NCBI GenBank assembly: GCA_022562855.1
Contig: JADFON010000105.1
Location: 1-6,574, forward strand
Reading direction: 5' to 3'
DNA from: Candidatus Zhuqueibacterota bacterium
GTDB taxonomy: Bacteria; SM23-31
DNA: 6,574 nt
Positions 2,959 through 6,320 of the stretch are shown piece by piece. Under the pieces are notes generated by a model. It was not told the origin of the DNA, ran no database searches, and was given only the letters and a program-made list of their open reading frames with translations. The position numbers and the translations under genes were made by a program. The first letter of the stretch is position 1, and each line of letters begins with the position of its first letter.

Positions 2959-3003
2959 ATACCCGGTACTGCATATATTTATAAGTGGCGCCGGGTATTT
3001 TTT
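2959..3003 (+). terminator. Rho-independent terminator after the amidohydrolase block
   Basis: ATACCCGG (2959-2966) pairs perfectly with CCGGGTAT (2991-2998), and a run of six T (2998-3003) follows. The loop is long at 24 bases, though partial pairing inside it could shorten it. The element starts 28 bases after the amidohydrolase stop and ends before the promoter of the sigma gene, which is the expected place for a transcription unit boundary. Confidence 0.7.
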
Positions 3004-3036: not shown

Positions 3037-3064
3037 CGAATCCTTTTGCGAAAAGGTACATCTA
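3037..3064 (+). promoter_or_regulatory. Putative ECF-sigma promoter (autoregulatory) before the sigma gene
   Basis: CGAATCCTTTT (3037-3047), 11 bases, then CATCTA (3059-3064). The identical pair of blocks with identical spacing recurs at 3934-3961 before the thioredoxin gene. Taking AATCC as the core of the -35 and CATCTA as the -10 gives a spacer of about 15 bases, typical of ECF promoters, and sigma factors of this class commonly transcribe their own genes. A start about 7 bases after CATCTA would fall on the ATG at 3071, giving a leaderless message. The spacer also holds the inverted repeat CCTTTT-gcg-AAAAGG (3042-3056). Assignment to the adjacent sigma factor is inference. Confidence 0.55.
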
Positions 3065-3070
3065 TAAGAA

Positions 3071-3643
3071 ATGAAGGAAATTGACGAATCGGAACTGGTA
3101 AGCAAGGCGAAGAAAGGTGATAGGTACGCCTTGACCAAAATTGTTCAATTATACGAAAAGAAAATTTACAATTTCGCCCTGCGTTATCTTCATAACAAAG
3201 AAGATGCTGAAGACGTTTTACAAGAGACATTTTTGAGTGTTGTCAAGGCTATCAACTCTTTTAAGGGGAAGTCAAGCCTGTCGACCTGGATATATAGAAT
3301 TGCCGCAAACGCTTCGTTGATGAAACTTCGGACCCGTGACAGGGTTTTTGAATCGTTTGATGAGGAAAGGATAGATCTTTCAAGAGATTATCCGGCTATG
3401 GACCAGCGTCTTTCACGTTCTCCATTTGATGTAGTAAGCGACAGGGATTTAGCCGAGAGTATTACAAAAAACATTGATAGTCTTTCCCCAAAATACCGTT
3501 CTGTATTCTTACTGAGGGACGTTGAAGGTTTTTCTTCAAAAGAAGTATCAAATATGCTGAATATGACCATTCCGGCAGTCAAGTCGAATCTCCGGAGAGC
3601 GCGTATCGCGCTGAGAGACAAACTGTCTGATGTGTTGGTCTAA
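3071..3643 (+). CDS. ECF-type RNA polymerase sigma-70 factor (RpoE-like)
   Basis: A 190-residue sigma factor with only regions 2 and 4, the normal size and layout of the extracytoplasmic function group. Region 2 (about residues 28-90) includes YNFALRYLHNKEDAEDVLQE and the helix SSLSTWIYRIAANASLMKLR, which recognises and melts the -10. Region 4 (about 132-185) includes LSPKYRSVFLLRDVEGFSSK and the helix-turn-helix TIPAVKSNLRRARIALRDKL, which reads the -35. The linker (about 91-131) is rather long and charged. An in-frame stop lies at 3065-3067, so the ATG at 3071 is the earliest possible start. It lacks a well-spaced Shine-Dalgarno: AAAAGG (3051-3056) is 14 bases away, which fits a leaderless transcript from the putative promoter. 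A zinc-binding anti-sigma gene begins 11 bases after the stop, so the two should be cotranscribed. Confidence 0.93.
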   Translation: MKEIDESELVSKAKKGDRYALTKIVQLYEKKIYNFALRYLHNKEDAEDVLQETFLSVVKAINSFKGKSSLSTWIYRIAANASLMKLRTRDRVFESFDEERIDLSRDYPAMDQRLSRSPFDVVSDRDLAESITKNIDSLSPKYRSVFLLRDVEGFSSKEVSNMLNMTIPAVKSNLRRARIALRDKLSDVLV

Positions 3644-3654
3644 ACAAGGAAAGG

Positions 3655-3879
3655 ATGTACATGGACTGCATTAAACGTATTGAAGATATTTGCGGCGCAC
3701 TCGGCGAAGATCTTAATTCTGCTAAATGTCTCGAGATCAAAAAACACCTTGATGACTGTCCAACGTGCTGCGCTTATGTCGATACAATTAAAAAAACAGT
3801 CGAAATTTATAAAGTCCTTCCCGACCAAGAGGTGCCTGGTTCTGTTCATCGAAAGCTTTGGAAGGTATTGAAGTTATAG
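3655..3879 (+). CDS. Zinc-binding anti-sigma factor (ZAS / RsrA-like), small and soluble
   Basis: A 74-residue protein, 11 bases after the ECF sigma gene, with the anti-sigma zinc motif HLDDCPTC (H31, C35, C38). C5 lies 26 residues before H31, giving C-x25-H-x3-C-x2-C. This matches the zinc ligand spacing I recall for the redox-sensing anti-sigma RsrA of Streptomyces (C11, H37, C41, C44). Extra cysteines at C13, C25 and C39 could take part in disulfide switching. There is no transmembrane segment, so it should act in the cytoplasm, binding the sigma factor until zinc is lost. The C-terminal part (residues about 40-74) is predicted helical. An ATG at 3661 is an alternative start: AAAGG (3650-3654) precedes it by 6 bases and the motif is unaffected. 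Redox sensing rather than another signal is inferred from the cysteines and from the thioredoxin gene next door. Confidence 0.82.
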   Translation: MYMDCIKRIEDICGALGEDLNSAKCLEIKKHLDDCPTCCAYVDTIKKTVEIYKVLPDQEVPGSVHRKLWKVLKL

Positions 3880-3914
3880 CGATTAAATGAATTTAAAAGT
3901 GTGCGGTTTTTGAG

Positions 3915-3937
3915 TTCGATAATCAAAAATTATCGAA
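3915..3937 (+). promoter_or_regulatory. Perfect inverted repeat overlapping the thioredoxin -35 element
   Basis: TTCGATAAT (3915-3923) and ATTATCGAA (3929-3937) are exact reverse complements separated by CAAAA. The right arm overlaps the first bases of the putative -35 block (3934-3944). It could be an operator for a dimeric regulator or a weak terminator for the sigma/anti-sigma unit. The stem is AT-rich and only TCC then four T follow, so a terminator role is doubtful. The sequence alone does not decide. Confidence 0.5.
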
Positions 3938-3961
3938 TCCTTTTCAAGCCAGATGCATCTA
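3934..3961 (+). promoter_or_regulatory. Putative ECF-sigma promoter for the thioredoxin cluster
   Basis: CGAATCCTTTT (3934-3944), 11 bases, CATCTA (3956-3961): the same blocks and spacing as before the sigma gene. The predicted start near 3968 would leave an untranslated leader of about 48 bases before the thioredoxin ATG at 4016, which has a good ribosome site (GGAG at 4005-4008). The spacer bases differ from those at the other site, so only the two blocks are conserved, as expected for a promoter rather than a recent duplication. Confidence 0.58.
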
Positions 3962-4015
3962 ACTTAATATAGAAAATAATTTTAGTTTAATATTTAATAT
4001 GAATGGAGAGAAAAA

Positions 4016-4348
4016 ATGGGAAATTTAGTAACTCTAACCGATGCGAATTTTGATGAAGAGGTTTTACAGTCAGATAAACCCGTCCTGGTGGATTTTTGGG
4101 CGGAATGGTGTCAGCCCTGTCATATGATTGCACCTACGGTAGAGGCATTGTCTAATGATTACGATGGACAGGTAAAGGTCGGCAAACTGGATATAGACAG
4201 CAACCAGGGAACAGCCTCAAAATACCAAATTATGAGTATCCCTTCATTGTTAATCTATAAAAATGGCGAGGTTGTTGAACGCATTGTCGGCGTCGCATCA
4301 AAAGATCATATAGCTGGATTACTTGACACACATTCTAAGGCGGAATAA
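4016..4348 (+). CDS. Thioredoxin with CQPC active site
   Basis: A 110-residue thioredoxin, a cytoplasmic dithiol-disulfide oxidoreductase that reduces protein disulfides. Landmarks fall at the same numbers as in E. coli TrxA: buried D26 in VDFW, active-site cysteines C32 and C35, cis-proline P76 in MSIPSLLIYKNGE, and G92. The active-site loop reads WCQPC rather than the canonical WCGPC, and H36 replaces the usual Lys after it. Residues between the cysteines tune redox potential and partner choice, so this is a real departure rather than a trivial one. GGAG (4005-4008) lies 7 bases before the ATG. There is no signal peptide. It is the first gene after the second putative ECF promoter and is followed 10 bases later by an OsmC-like gene, so it probably leads an operon. 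An anti-sigma with many cysteines upstream makes it a candidate partner or reset enzyme for that protein. Confidence 0.93.
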   Translation: MGNLVTLTDANFDEEVLQSDKPVLVDFWAEWCQPCHMIAPTVEALSNDYDGQVKVGKLDIDSNQGTASKYQIMSIPSLLIYKNGEVVERIVGVASKDHIAGLLDTHSKAE

Positions 4349-4358
4349 GGGGTATATT

Positions 4359-4766
4359 GTGAAGATTGAAGCCAAGTGGCAAAGCGGAATGCATTTTAAA
4401 TGCACTTCTCCGTCCGGTCACACTATAGACGTGGACTCCGGTTCCGACGGGATGACCAAAGGACCTTCTCCAATGGAGTTGTTGCTCCATTCGGTGGCAT
4501 GCTGTTCAGGGATAGATGTGGTGCTTATTTTGCAAAAAAAGAGAAAAGAACCGGAATCGTTGAATGTAACCGTTGAAGGGATCCGGTCGGAATCGCATCC
4601 AAAAAAATATACAGATGTAAAGCTGCATTTCTCCGTCAAACAGGACAGCGTAACAAACGAAGAGATGGAGCAGGCGATAAATCTGTCCCTCGACAAATAT
4701 TGCTCGGTAATCGGTACAATAACGCCAGCAGCAAAAATATCCTGGGATTATACCATAAATAATTGA
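4359..4766 (+). CDS. OsmC/YhfA-family protein (peroxide or thiol stress)
   Basis: A 135-residue OsmC-like protein. The start is the GTG at 4359, preceded by AAGGGG (4347-4352) at 6 bases; this is better than the in-frame TTG at 4323, which lies inside the thioredoxin gene and has no ribosome site. The two conserved cysteines of the family appear as C49 in SVACCSGIDVVLIL and C115 in DKYCSVIGTI. GPSPMELLLHSVA is the helix leading to the first. The GIDVV and KYCSV patterns point to the YhfA-like branch rather than classical Ohr. Characterised OsmC/Ohr members reduce organic hydroperoxides using this cysteine pair; the substrate of YhfA-like members is less clear. C48 next to C49 is an extra cysteine. 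Its place directly after thioredoxin fits a thiol-dependent peroxidase needing a reductant, but this is inference. Confidence 0.87.
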   Translation: MKIEAKWQSGMHFKCTSPSGHTIDVDSGSDGMTKGPSPMELLLHSVACCSGIDVVLILQKKRKEPESLNVTVEGIRSESHPKKYTDVKLHFSVKQDSVTNEEMEQAINLSLDKYCSVIGTITPAAKISWDYTINN

Positions 4767-4824: not shown

Positions 4825-5211
4825 ATGAAATATGGATATTCAAAAAAAGTCGATTTAAGCTTTGATGAGGCGATAGAAAAAGTAATAAGTGAGTTACAAA
4901 ATGAAGGGTTTGGTGTGCTGACGGACATAGATATAAAGAAGACGCTGAAAAAGAAACTCGATGTAGATTTCAGACCTTACCGGATATTAGGAGCATGTAA
5001 TCCTCCGGCGGCGTACAAAGCGCTCATGACAGAGGAAGAAATCGGATTGCTTCTACCCTGTAATATTATTGTGTACGAAAATAAAGAAAACGAAATTATT
5101 GTGTCGGCTACCGAAGTCGATGCGCTATTGTCTTTAGTCGGGAAACCGGAGATAAATGCCGTTGCGCAGGACATAAAGAAAAAACTGCACAATGTCATTG
5201 ATTCCTTATAG
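4825..5211 (+). CDS. DUF302-domain protein
   Basis: A 128-residue single-domain protein matching the DUF302 family throughout. It begins MKYGYSKKVDLSFDEAIEKV, continues with EGFGVLTDIDIKKTLKKKL, then has the hallmark RPYRILGACNPPAAYKAL and the segment EEIGLLLPCNIIVYE. The two conserved cysteines are C58 and C79. The family has no settled biochemical function; members often sit with redox, heavy-metal or sulfur genes. A purine-rich ribosome site, GGGGAGGGAG, ends 3 bases before the ATG. No signal peptide is present, so it is probably cytoplasmic. A 58-base gap separates it from the OsmC-like gene, with no clear terminator, so it probably belongs to the same transcript, although an internal promoter is possible. 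Confidence 0.88.
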   Translation: MKYGYSKKVDLSFDEAIEKVISELQNEGFGVLTDIDIKKTLKKKLDVDFRPYRILGACNPPAAYKALMTEEEIGLLLPCNIIVYENKENEIIVSATEVDALLSLVGKPEINAVAQDIKKKLHNVIDSL

Positions 5212-5222
5212 AGGAAATTTTT

Positions 5223-5429
5223 ATGCCGATGTATGAATTTGAATGCAGAGAATGTGGACAGGAATTTGAAGACCTGGTATTTTCATCAAATTATTCTCCA
5301 GAAGATATTAAGTGTCCCGCCTGCAGCGCCTCAAAGCCGGAGAGAAAGATCTCAGCAGCGGCTGTCGGTGTTTCTTCGCGTTCGAACGGAGGGTCGTGCA
5401 GTTCGGGTTACTCCAGTGGATTTTGCTGA
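5223..5429 (+). CDS. FmdB-type zinc-ribbon protein
   Basis: A 68-residue protein beginning MPMYEFECRECGQEFEDLV, the FmdB-family signature. The zinc ribbon uses C8 and C11, then C31 and C34 (KCPACSASKPERKIS). The tail (residues about 49-68) is low-complexity Ser/Gly with two further cysteines (C59 and the terminal C68), which resembles the Ser-Gly-Cys tails of many small FmdB proteins. These proteins were first named as putative regulators near formamidase genes, but their molecular role is unresolved. AGGA (5212-5215) lies 7 bases before the ATG and the gap from the DUF302 stop is 11 bases, so the two are surely cotranscribed. A hairpin (5451-5471) follows its stop. Confidence 0.87.
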   Translation: MPMYEFECRECGQEFEDLVFSSNYSPEDIKCPACSASKPERKISAAAVGVSSRSNGGSCSSGYSSGFC

Positions 5430-5506: not shown

Positions 5507-5962
5507 ATGGAATGCGAAATTCCTCTTCGGAACGCCACAAGCGGAGAGATAAAATCCGTTTTCAATAAATATGATACTGTAGCCGTGGTCGGTTTGTCCA
5601 CCAATCCTGCTAAAGACAGTAACATCATAGGTCATTACCTCAAGGACAACGGTTTTACCATTATTCCGGTACATCCATACGCTAAGGAAATTCTCGGAGA
5701 AAAAGCATATCCTTCTCTCAAGGATATCCCTCATGACGTTCAAGTCGAAATAGTCTGTGTCTTCCGCCCCTCCGGTGAAGTCAGTGAAATAGTCGATGAT
5801 GCAATTAGTGTTTCAGCCAAAGTAATCTGGACGCAGCTTGGCATAGCAAATAACACCGCCGCAGATAAAGCAAGATCAGCCGGACTACAAGTTGTTATGA
5901 ACAAATGTATGAAGGTTGAACACTATCTTTGGCTTAACCGGAGAAGAGAAATTCCTGCCTGA
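5507..5962 (+). CDS. YccU-like CoA-binding (Rossmann) protein
   Basis: A 151-residue stand-alone CoA-binding domain of the CoA_binding_2 / YccU type. Landmarks in order are: the Rossmann start TVAVVGLSTNPAKDSNIIG (about 24-42) with the GLSxxPxKxS loop, FTIIPVHPYAKEILGEKAY (about 50-68), VCVFRPSGEV (about 83-92), IWTQLGI (about 107-113), and the closing VVMNKCMKVEH (about 129-139). Family structures show a CoA-binding fold, like the first domain of succinyl-CoA synthetase alpha, but no catalytic domain is attached and the physiological role is unknown. The ribosome site is weak (GAAAAAGA at 5491-5498), unlike its neighbours. The gap before it is 77 bases with a hairpin, so it may be only partly coupled to the redox genes. 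CoA persulfide or CoA-redox links have been suggested by gene neighbourhoods but are not shown here. Confidence 0.87.
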   Translation: MECEIPLRNATSGEIKSVFNKYDTVAVVGLSTNPAKDSNIIGHYLKDNGFTIIPVHPYAKEILGEKAYPSLKDIPHDVQVEIVCVFRPSGEVSEIVDDAISVSAKVIWTQLGIANNTAADKARSAGLQVVMNKCMKVEHYLWLNRRREIPA

Positions 5963-6065: not shown

Positions 6066-6320
6066 ATGTTTAATTACCAGTCCTCCCCTGTACGTATTAT
6101 GATGATTTTATTTGTATTGACCGGGATTTCCGGCTCCTCATTTGCACGGGTTCAAGCCGATACTCAGGACGCATCCTCAAAAGACCTGAAAAACCTGTAT
6201 AAAACAGGGTACATCCTGCAGGACAGAAATGATGACAGTGTAATTGACTTTGTAAATACAAAAATCATTCTCCCGGCAAACATTAAAATCGGCGATCTTG
6301 TTAGCGGCTCTATGGGCTGA
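6066..6320 (+). CDS. N-terminus of an exported protein, cut off at a chimeric join
   Basis: The start at the ATG at 6066 is supported by AAAGGAG (6051-6057) 8 bases upstream. The in-frame TTG at 6015 has no ribosome site. Residues about 1-28 are a signal peptide (basic start, then IMMILFVLTGISGSSFA). The mature part includes KDLKNLYKTGYILQDRNDDSVIDFVNTKIILPANI. DRNDDSVID resembles a calcium-binding DxNxDxxxD loop, a pattern seen at the N-terminus of larger secreted proteins; I do not recognise the family with confidence. The native coding sequence probably ends at about 6284-6294. The remaining codons to the TGA at 6318-6320 read out of frame through AroA-coding DNA, so this stop is not the true end of the gene. 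Confidence 0.6.
   Translation: MFNYQSSPVRIMMILFVLTGISGSSFARVQADTQDASSKDLKNLYKTGYILQDRNDDSVIDFVNTKIILPANIKIGDLVSGSMG
6284..6294. other. Junction between unrelated sequences (probable chimera)
   Basis: Left of this point the DNA is AT-rich and encodes an exported protein in the frame of 6066. Right of it the DNA is about 62-65% GC (37 of 60 bases at 6361-6420, 39 of 60 at 6421-6480) against about 42% at 6181-6240, and encodes AroA in another frame. AroA-like residues can be followed back to the K codon at 6286, so the join lies in this short interval and could involve shared bases such as AAATCGGC. Confidence 0.7.

Follow-up and report, generated by a model that had tools for sequence, protein, structure and literature searches.

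GAATC-N16-CATCTA elements before an ECF sigma gene and a thioredoxin gene as candidate promoters of the sigma factor encoded beside them

In contig JADFON010000105.1 of a Candidatus Zhuqueibacterota draft genome (GCA_022562855.1), the same two sequence blocks precede an ECF sigma gene and a thioredoxin (trx) gene. Are they promoters, and are they read by the sigma factor encoded between them? The whole stretch analysed, here called the window, comprises 6,574 nucleotides and is contig C111 of the draft genome G000. Both copies were found exactly where the earlier note had placed them, with equal spacing and unlike spacer bases: element 1 is CGAATCCTTTT-GCGAAAAGGTA-CATCTA and element 2 is CGAATCCTTTT-CAAGCCAGATG-CATCTA. 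The features of the locus are listed below, with reference to G001 (another genus of the same family), G005 (another family of the same class), and the genome G271.

2959–3003, + strand: hairpin followed by a T run, likely the terminator of the upstream amidohydrolase genes (−18.4 kcal/mol, z −2.9).
3037–3064, + strand: element 1, candidate ECF promoter for autoregulation, placed and spaced alike in G001 and G005; putative −35 GAATC at 3038–3042, spacer of 16 nt, putative −10 CATCTA at 3059–3064, predicted +1 at about 3071–3072.
3071–3643, + strand: ECF sigma factor, 190 aa (Pfam Sigma70_r2 2.1e-19, Sigma70_r4_2 2.3e-14).
3661–3879 (start may be 3655), + strand: short soluble zinc-type anti-sigma factor, 72 aa (RsrA TIGR03988, conserved residues).
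3934–3961, + strand: element 2, candidate trx operon promoter, same position in G001, G005, and G271 (N17); putative −35 GAATC at 3935–3939, putative −10 CATCTA at 3956–3961, predicted +1 at about 3969.
4016–4348, + strand: thioredoxin, 110 aa, active site WCQPC (Pfam PF00085 5.4e-33; TIGR01068 above cut-off).
4359–4766, + strand: OsmC-like protein, putative trx operon (Pfam PF02566 1.2e-18).
4825–5211, + strand: DUF302 protein, putative trx operon (Pfam PF03625 2.2e-24).
5223–5429, + strand: FmdB-type zinc ribbon protein, putative trx operon (Pfam PF09723 4.9e-13; TIGR02605).
5507–5962, + strand: CoA-binding-domain protein (Pfam PF13380 2.5e-39).

All genes of the locus lie on the + strand, with two amidohydrolase genes (214–2930) upstream of the hairpin and the sigma gene and its followers behind it. 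The hairpin ends 67 nt before the sigma gene and was missed by the terminator scanner, as its loop exceeds the scanner's rule; on the + strand between 2880 and 4030, the scans gave neither a sigma-70-like promoter nor a terminator. The sigma ATG (3071) comes 6 nt after the end of element 1, and the trx ATG (4016) 54 nt after that of element 2. The sigma protein consists of Sigma70 regions 2 and 4 only, and both Pfam matches are above cut-off. The adjoining anti-sigma gene encodes the motif H29xxxC33xxC36 together with C11 and C23; these five residues are invariant in the four closest anti-sigma sequences and lost in some Elusimicrobia. A profile of the anti-sigma factor matched no solved structure. 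At other loci of the sigma group, too, homologues of the CoA-binding protein come behind the anti-sigma gene. At the contig end (6320–6574), the G + C content rises from about 0.42 to 0.64 and the sequence codes for a piece of aroA / prephenate dehydrogenase-EPSP synthase; this end is probably an assembly chimera that cuts the gene starting at 6066.

Dinucleotide shuffles of the window (n = 200, up to three mismatches) gave on average 0.04 matches, and none of them gave two. Across the 2.51 Mb of G000, the window copies are the only exact copies of CGAATCCTTTT-N11-CATCTA (reversed control: 0), and a third intergenic site, CGAATCTTTTT-N11-CATCTA, is found at C65:121–148. G001 and G005 keep the order sigma, anti-sigma, trx; their sigma factors share 66% and 55% identity with the window sigma, respectively. 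The element before the sigma gene is GAATCTTTTTTGAAAATGGCGCATCAA in G001 and GAATCTTTTTTCAAAATGAAGCATCAA in G005, and the one before trx is GAATCCTTTTTCTTTTTCCTGCATCTA and GAATCCTTTTTACTTTTTCTGCATCTA, respectively; the gap length is that of the window, and most spacer bases differ. The earlier note had named a lack of conservation in relatives as an outcome that would speak against it; instead, the element is kept at both positions in both genomes. This by itself rules out chance. In G001 and G005 (L245 925–951, L246 390–416), the spacer of the promoter contains an ATG in frame with sigma (AAAATG), some 18 nt ahead of the predicted start; at this place the window reads AAAAGG.

For a wider comparison, a sigma profile was built from seven sequences and searched against 386 genomes. 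About 45 matches had E < 1e-58 and ranked above other ECF genes; 56 loci were retrieved, mostly from this group and some from weaker matches. When GAA[TAC]C-N-CATC was counted within 260 nt upstream of sigma in 57 loci, the spacing was 16 nt in 11 and 17 nt in 3, and no locus had a spacing of 8–15 or 18–23 nt. GAA[TA]C-N16/17-CATC was found upstream of sigma 11 times, whereas 300 dinucleotide shuffles averaged 0.21 and never exceeded 3; when the window and its two nearest relatives were left aside, 8 matches remained, and the shuffles averaged 0.21 and never exceeded 2. About 40 of the 57 loci gave no clear element before sigma, so either promoter specificity varies in the group or elements were missed. 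Among Elusimicrobia, the element precedes both sigma and clpB in record L063; in L064, it precedes sigma, and a variant lies before a ClpB/ClpC-type AAA gene. A further Elusimicrobia record, L091, has two GAATCCTTTT/GAATCCTTTC...GCATCCAAAG elements at 3868 and 5695. On the sigma tree, the element is scattered through the group, yet clustered beyond any of 500 label shuffles. Such a pattern is as expected of a group-wide promoter that would have drifted in places. A bipartite candidate −35/−10 element, its 16-nt spacer inside the range of 15–18 nt, thus precedes the window's sigma gene and is kept in relatives. These comparisons refine the conserved core to GAA[T/C/A]C-N16(17)-CATC[T/C]A, the CTTTT run being softer.

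Acidobacteriota homologues of sigma with GAANCC...CATCCAA close to the start of sigma were not counted, as CATCCAA at that place consists of sigma codons (M-P-A-I-Q). In L109, L110, L122, L124, L127, L128, and L137, GAANC-N16-CATCCAA lies some 64 nt ahead of the sigma match, with CATCCAA in the first sigma codons; this may reflect constraint on the coding sequence or a promoter that overlaps the start of the gene.

Which genes does the element precede elsewhere? We scanned six whole genomes (G000, G001, G346, G271, G005, and G010) with the strict motif GAATC-N16-CATCTAA and obtained six matches, all intergenic and gene-directed (reversed control: 1). The genes behind them are trx (2), sigma, clpB, copper efflux, and ferritin. 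In G000, the two strict matches are before trx and at C65:122, the latter 234 nt 5' of a Cys/His-rich reading frame, with CusC-, CusB-, and CusA-like genes and one for a heavy-metal-domain protein behind it. G001 has one match, before trx; G346 has two, before sigma and clpB; and G271 has one, about 75 nt before a gene read as ferritin from its translation. The whole genomes of G005 and G010 gave no strict match. As the draft of G000 is about 80% complete, its regulon is a lower bound. In scans with one and three mismatches most matches fell inside genes, and near-exact matches alone were retained. The exact motif in its relaxed form occurs once in G002 and once in G003, in both cases within a gene on the antisense strand, and these two look like chance. 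Two further sites were seen at sigma loci: in G271, an N17 element lies between the anti-sigma gene and trx at a locus that also has trxB and osmC, and in G050, GAATC-N16-CATCTAA directly follows sigma, ahead of a TlpA-DUF1858-OsmC cluster. Homologues of trx, trxB, OsmC, TlpA, DUF302, FmdB, CoA-binding, or ClpB genes lie downstream of sigma in 16 of the 56 loci. The earlier note had proposed a searchable regulon motif and named enrichment before redox genes, in the rest of the genome and in relatives, as support. The strict form occurs only before stress and redox genes, and it widens the predicted regulon to copper efflux in G000 and, in other lineages, to clpB or ferritin.

The scheme of ECF promoters is a GAA-type −35 and a short −10 at tight spacing, and GAATC-N16-CATCTA fits it. 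By profile, the closest sigma factors are SigW (Bacillus subtilis, with RsiW) and RpoE (Escherichia coli, with RseA); the nearest solved structures are SigW (5wuq, E 3.6e-42), RpoE-type sigma-H, and RpoE. SigW promoters carry an AT-rich run after the −35, a likeness to the elements described here. The anti-sigma factors RsiW and RseA are membrane-bound, whereas the one in the window, with 72 aa, is too short for a membrane domain and is encoded beside thiol-redox genes. In gene arrangement, the locus resembles SigR/RsrA of Streptomyces and SigH/RshA of Mycobacterium and Corynebacterium (ECF12), where an ECF sigma gene is likewise followed by a short HxxxCxxC anti-sigma gene. An autoregulatory promoter is common to SigR/RsrA, SigH/RshA, and this locus, as are thioredoxin system targets, to which clpB is added in some lineages here. 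The anti-sigma factor is RsrA-like (HxxxCxxC, an upstream cysteine ligand, gene beside sigma), but its match to NCBIfam RsrA TIGR03988 (E 5.7e-6, 26.3 bits) is below the 62.5-bit cut-off. Against SigH_actino, the window sigma scores 89 bits, below the cut-off of 251.55, and is nearer to SigW/RpoE. Published SigR promoters read GGGAAT[G/C]-16-[C/G]GTTG (PMC3489674). The −35 GAAT[C] and the 16-nt spacer are alike, but the −10 is CATC[T/C]A here and [C/G]GTTG in SigR promoters, so that a full SigR-type promoter is not present. Judged by these comparisons, the window sigma is not a SigR orthologue. The wiring and the GAATC-N16 architecture parallel actinobacterial SigR/RsrA: the pair would work in the manner of SigR/RsrA while scoring below both family cut-offs.

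Taken as promoters, the elements might be read by another ECF sigma factor of G000, which carries at least seven ECF genes. The obvious candidate is a SigR-like sigma at C403, which scores 182 bits against SigH_actino, where the window sigma scores 89; moreover, the −35 and the spacing of the elements resemble SigR promoters. It is encoded in a second ECF/zinc anti-sigma pair (C403:5988–6778, L254), far nearer to actinobacterial SigH and with a longer anti-sigma factor. We regard its reading of the elements as improbable, because across phyla the element accompanies the sigma group to which the window sigma belongs, it is located before the window's sigma gene, and GAATC-N16-CATC is absent before C403 and the other ECF sigma genes of G000. 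Even less probable is that the elements are operators of a DNA-binding regulator. The perfect inverted repeat CCTTTT-GCG-AAAAGG in element 1 (3042–3056) would suit such a regulator, but it is missing from element 2 and from the relatives, and the conserved blocks are asymmetric, invariably gene-directed, and 16–17 nt apart.

It is hardly credible that the blocks recur by chance or stem from a mobile repeat. The chance expectation of about 0.001 given in the earlier note holds for 17 fixed bases; the gap length, however, was picked post hoc, and with about 20 gap lengths the value becomes about 0.02. The lone window is therefore insufficient to dismiss a lucky 17-base match, and it is conservation in relatives, with position and spacing kept across phyla, that refutes it. 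A mobile repeat fares no better, as the match is limited to the two blocks, the spacers are unlike, and the genome holds three copies.

Hence, the two elements are very probably promoters of the ECF sigma factor encoded at 3071–3643 and would provide autoregulation together with thiol-redox and protein-repair control. The proposal of the earlier note that they form the recognition sequence of this sigma factor, including autoregulation, gains support from conservation in relatives and the spacing fixed throughout the group. From the sequence, we infer recognition by the window sigma, the transcript starts, and the redox switching of the sigma/anti-sigma pair. Soluble anti-sigma factors with an HxxxCxxC motif often serve in redox sensing (PMC7406223). 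Together with the conserved residues, this suggests that under reducing conditions the anti-sigma factor (3661–3879), in its reduced zinc form, binds the sigma factor, and that thiol oxidation or disturbance of the zinc site would set it free. RNA polymerase with the freed sigma factor would then start at element 1, so that sigma and anti-sigma are positively autoregulated, and at element 2, for thioredoxin, OsmC, and the genes after them; a copper/silver-type efflux operon elsewhere in G000 would also be transcribed.

The position of element 1 may bear on translation. If the C of CATC is set at −10, the predicted sigma transcript starts at 3072, one base inside the ATG (3071), and an earlier start codon is excluded by the in-frame TAA at 3065–3067, immediately 5' of the ATG. 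The window and G346 have an in-frame sigma start no more than 2 nt from the predicted +1, whereas G005, G341, G211, G257, G348, and G002 have theirs at +6 to +12; G001 has a predicted sigma-driven transcript without any usual start codon, and the G010 family has a long sigma leader. The predicted trx transcript has a normal leader of about 47 nt with GGAGAG at 4005–4010. With predicted starts, an autoregulatory promoter that usually abuts the sigma start codon implies a leaderless or near-leaderless mRNA in part of the group. It is possible, at somewhat less than even chance, that this ECF group has its autoregulatory promoter fused to the sigma start, such that self-induction yields an mRNA with little or no leader and target mRNAs have normal leaders. 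SigR also has a translational twist: a GTC start codon and, from the upstream autoregulatory promoter sigRp2, a longer isoform, SigR' (PMC5472188); control of translation may thus be a recurrent trait of this node. In the window, by contrast, the autoregulatory promoter directly adjoins the sigma ATG. If the self-induced mRNA is leaderless or nearly leaderless, the feedback loop would, under stress, shift sigma translation to an RBS-free mode or a different N-terminus.

A literature search for the motif strings together with ECF gave no match. For the stress response of uncultured phyla, the element offers a candidate promoter sequence tied to a sigma group, none having been assigned in the literature searched, and the motif is specific enough for regulons to be listed straight from draft genomes. 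The SigR-like wiring of sigma, zinc anti-sigma, and thioredoxin or ClpB is found here with a sigma factor other than SigR. Thus, thiol-stress control by zinc anti-sigma factors may have arisen repeatedly, or it may predate the actinobacterial example.
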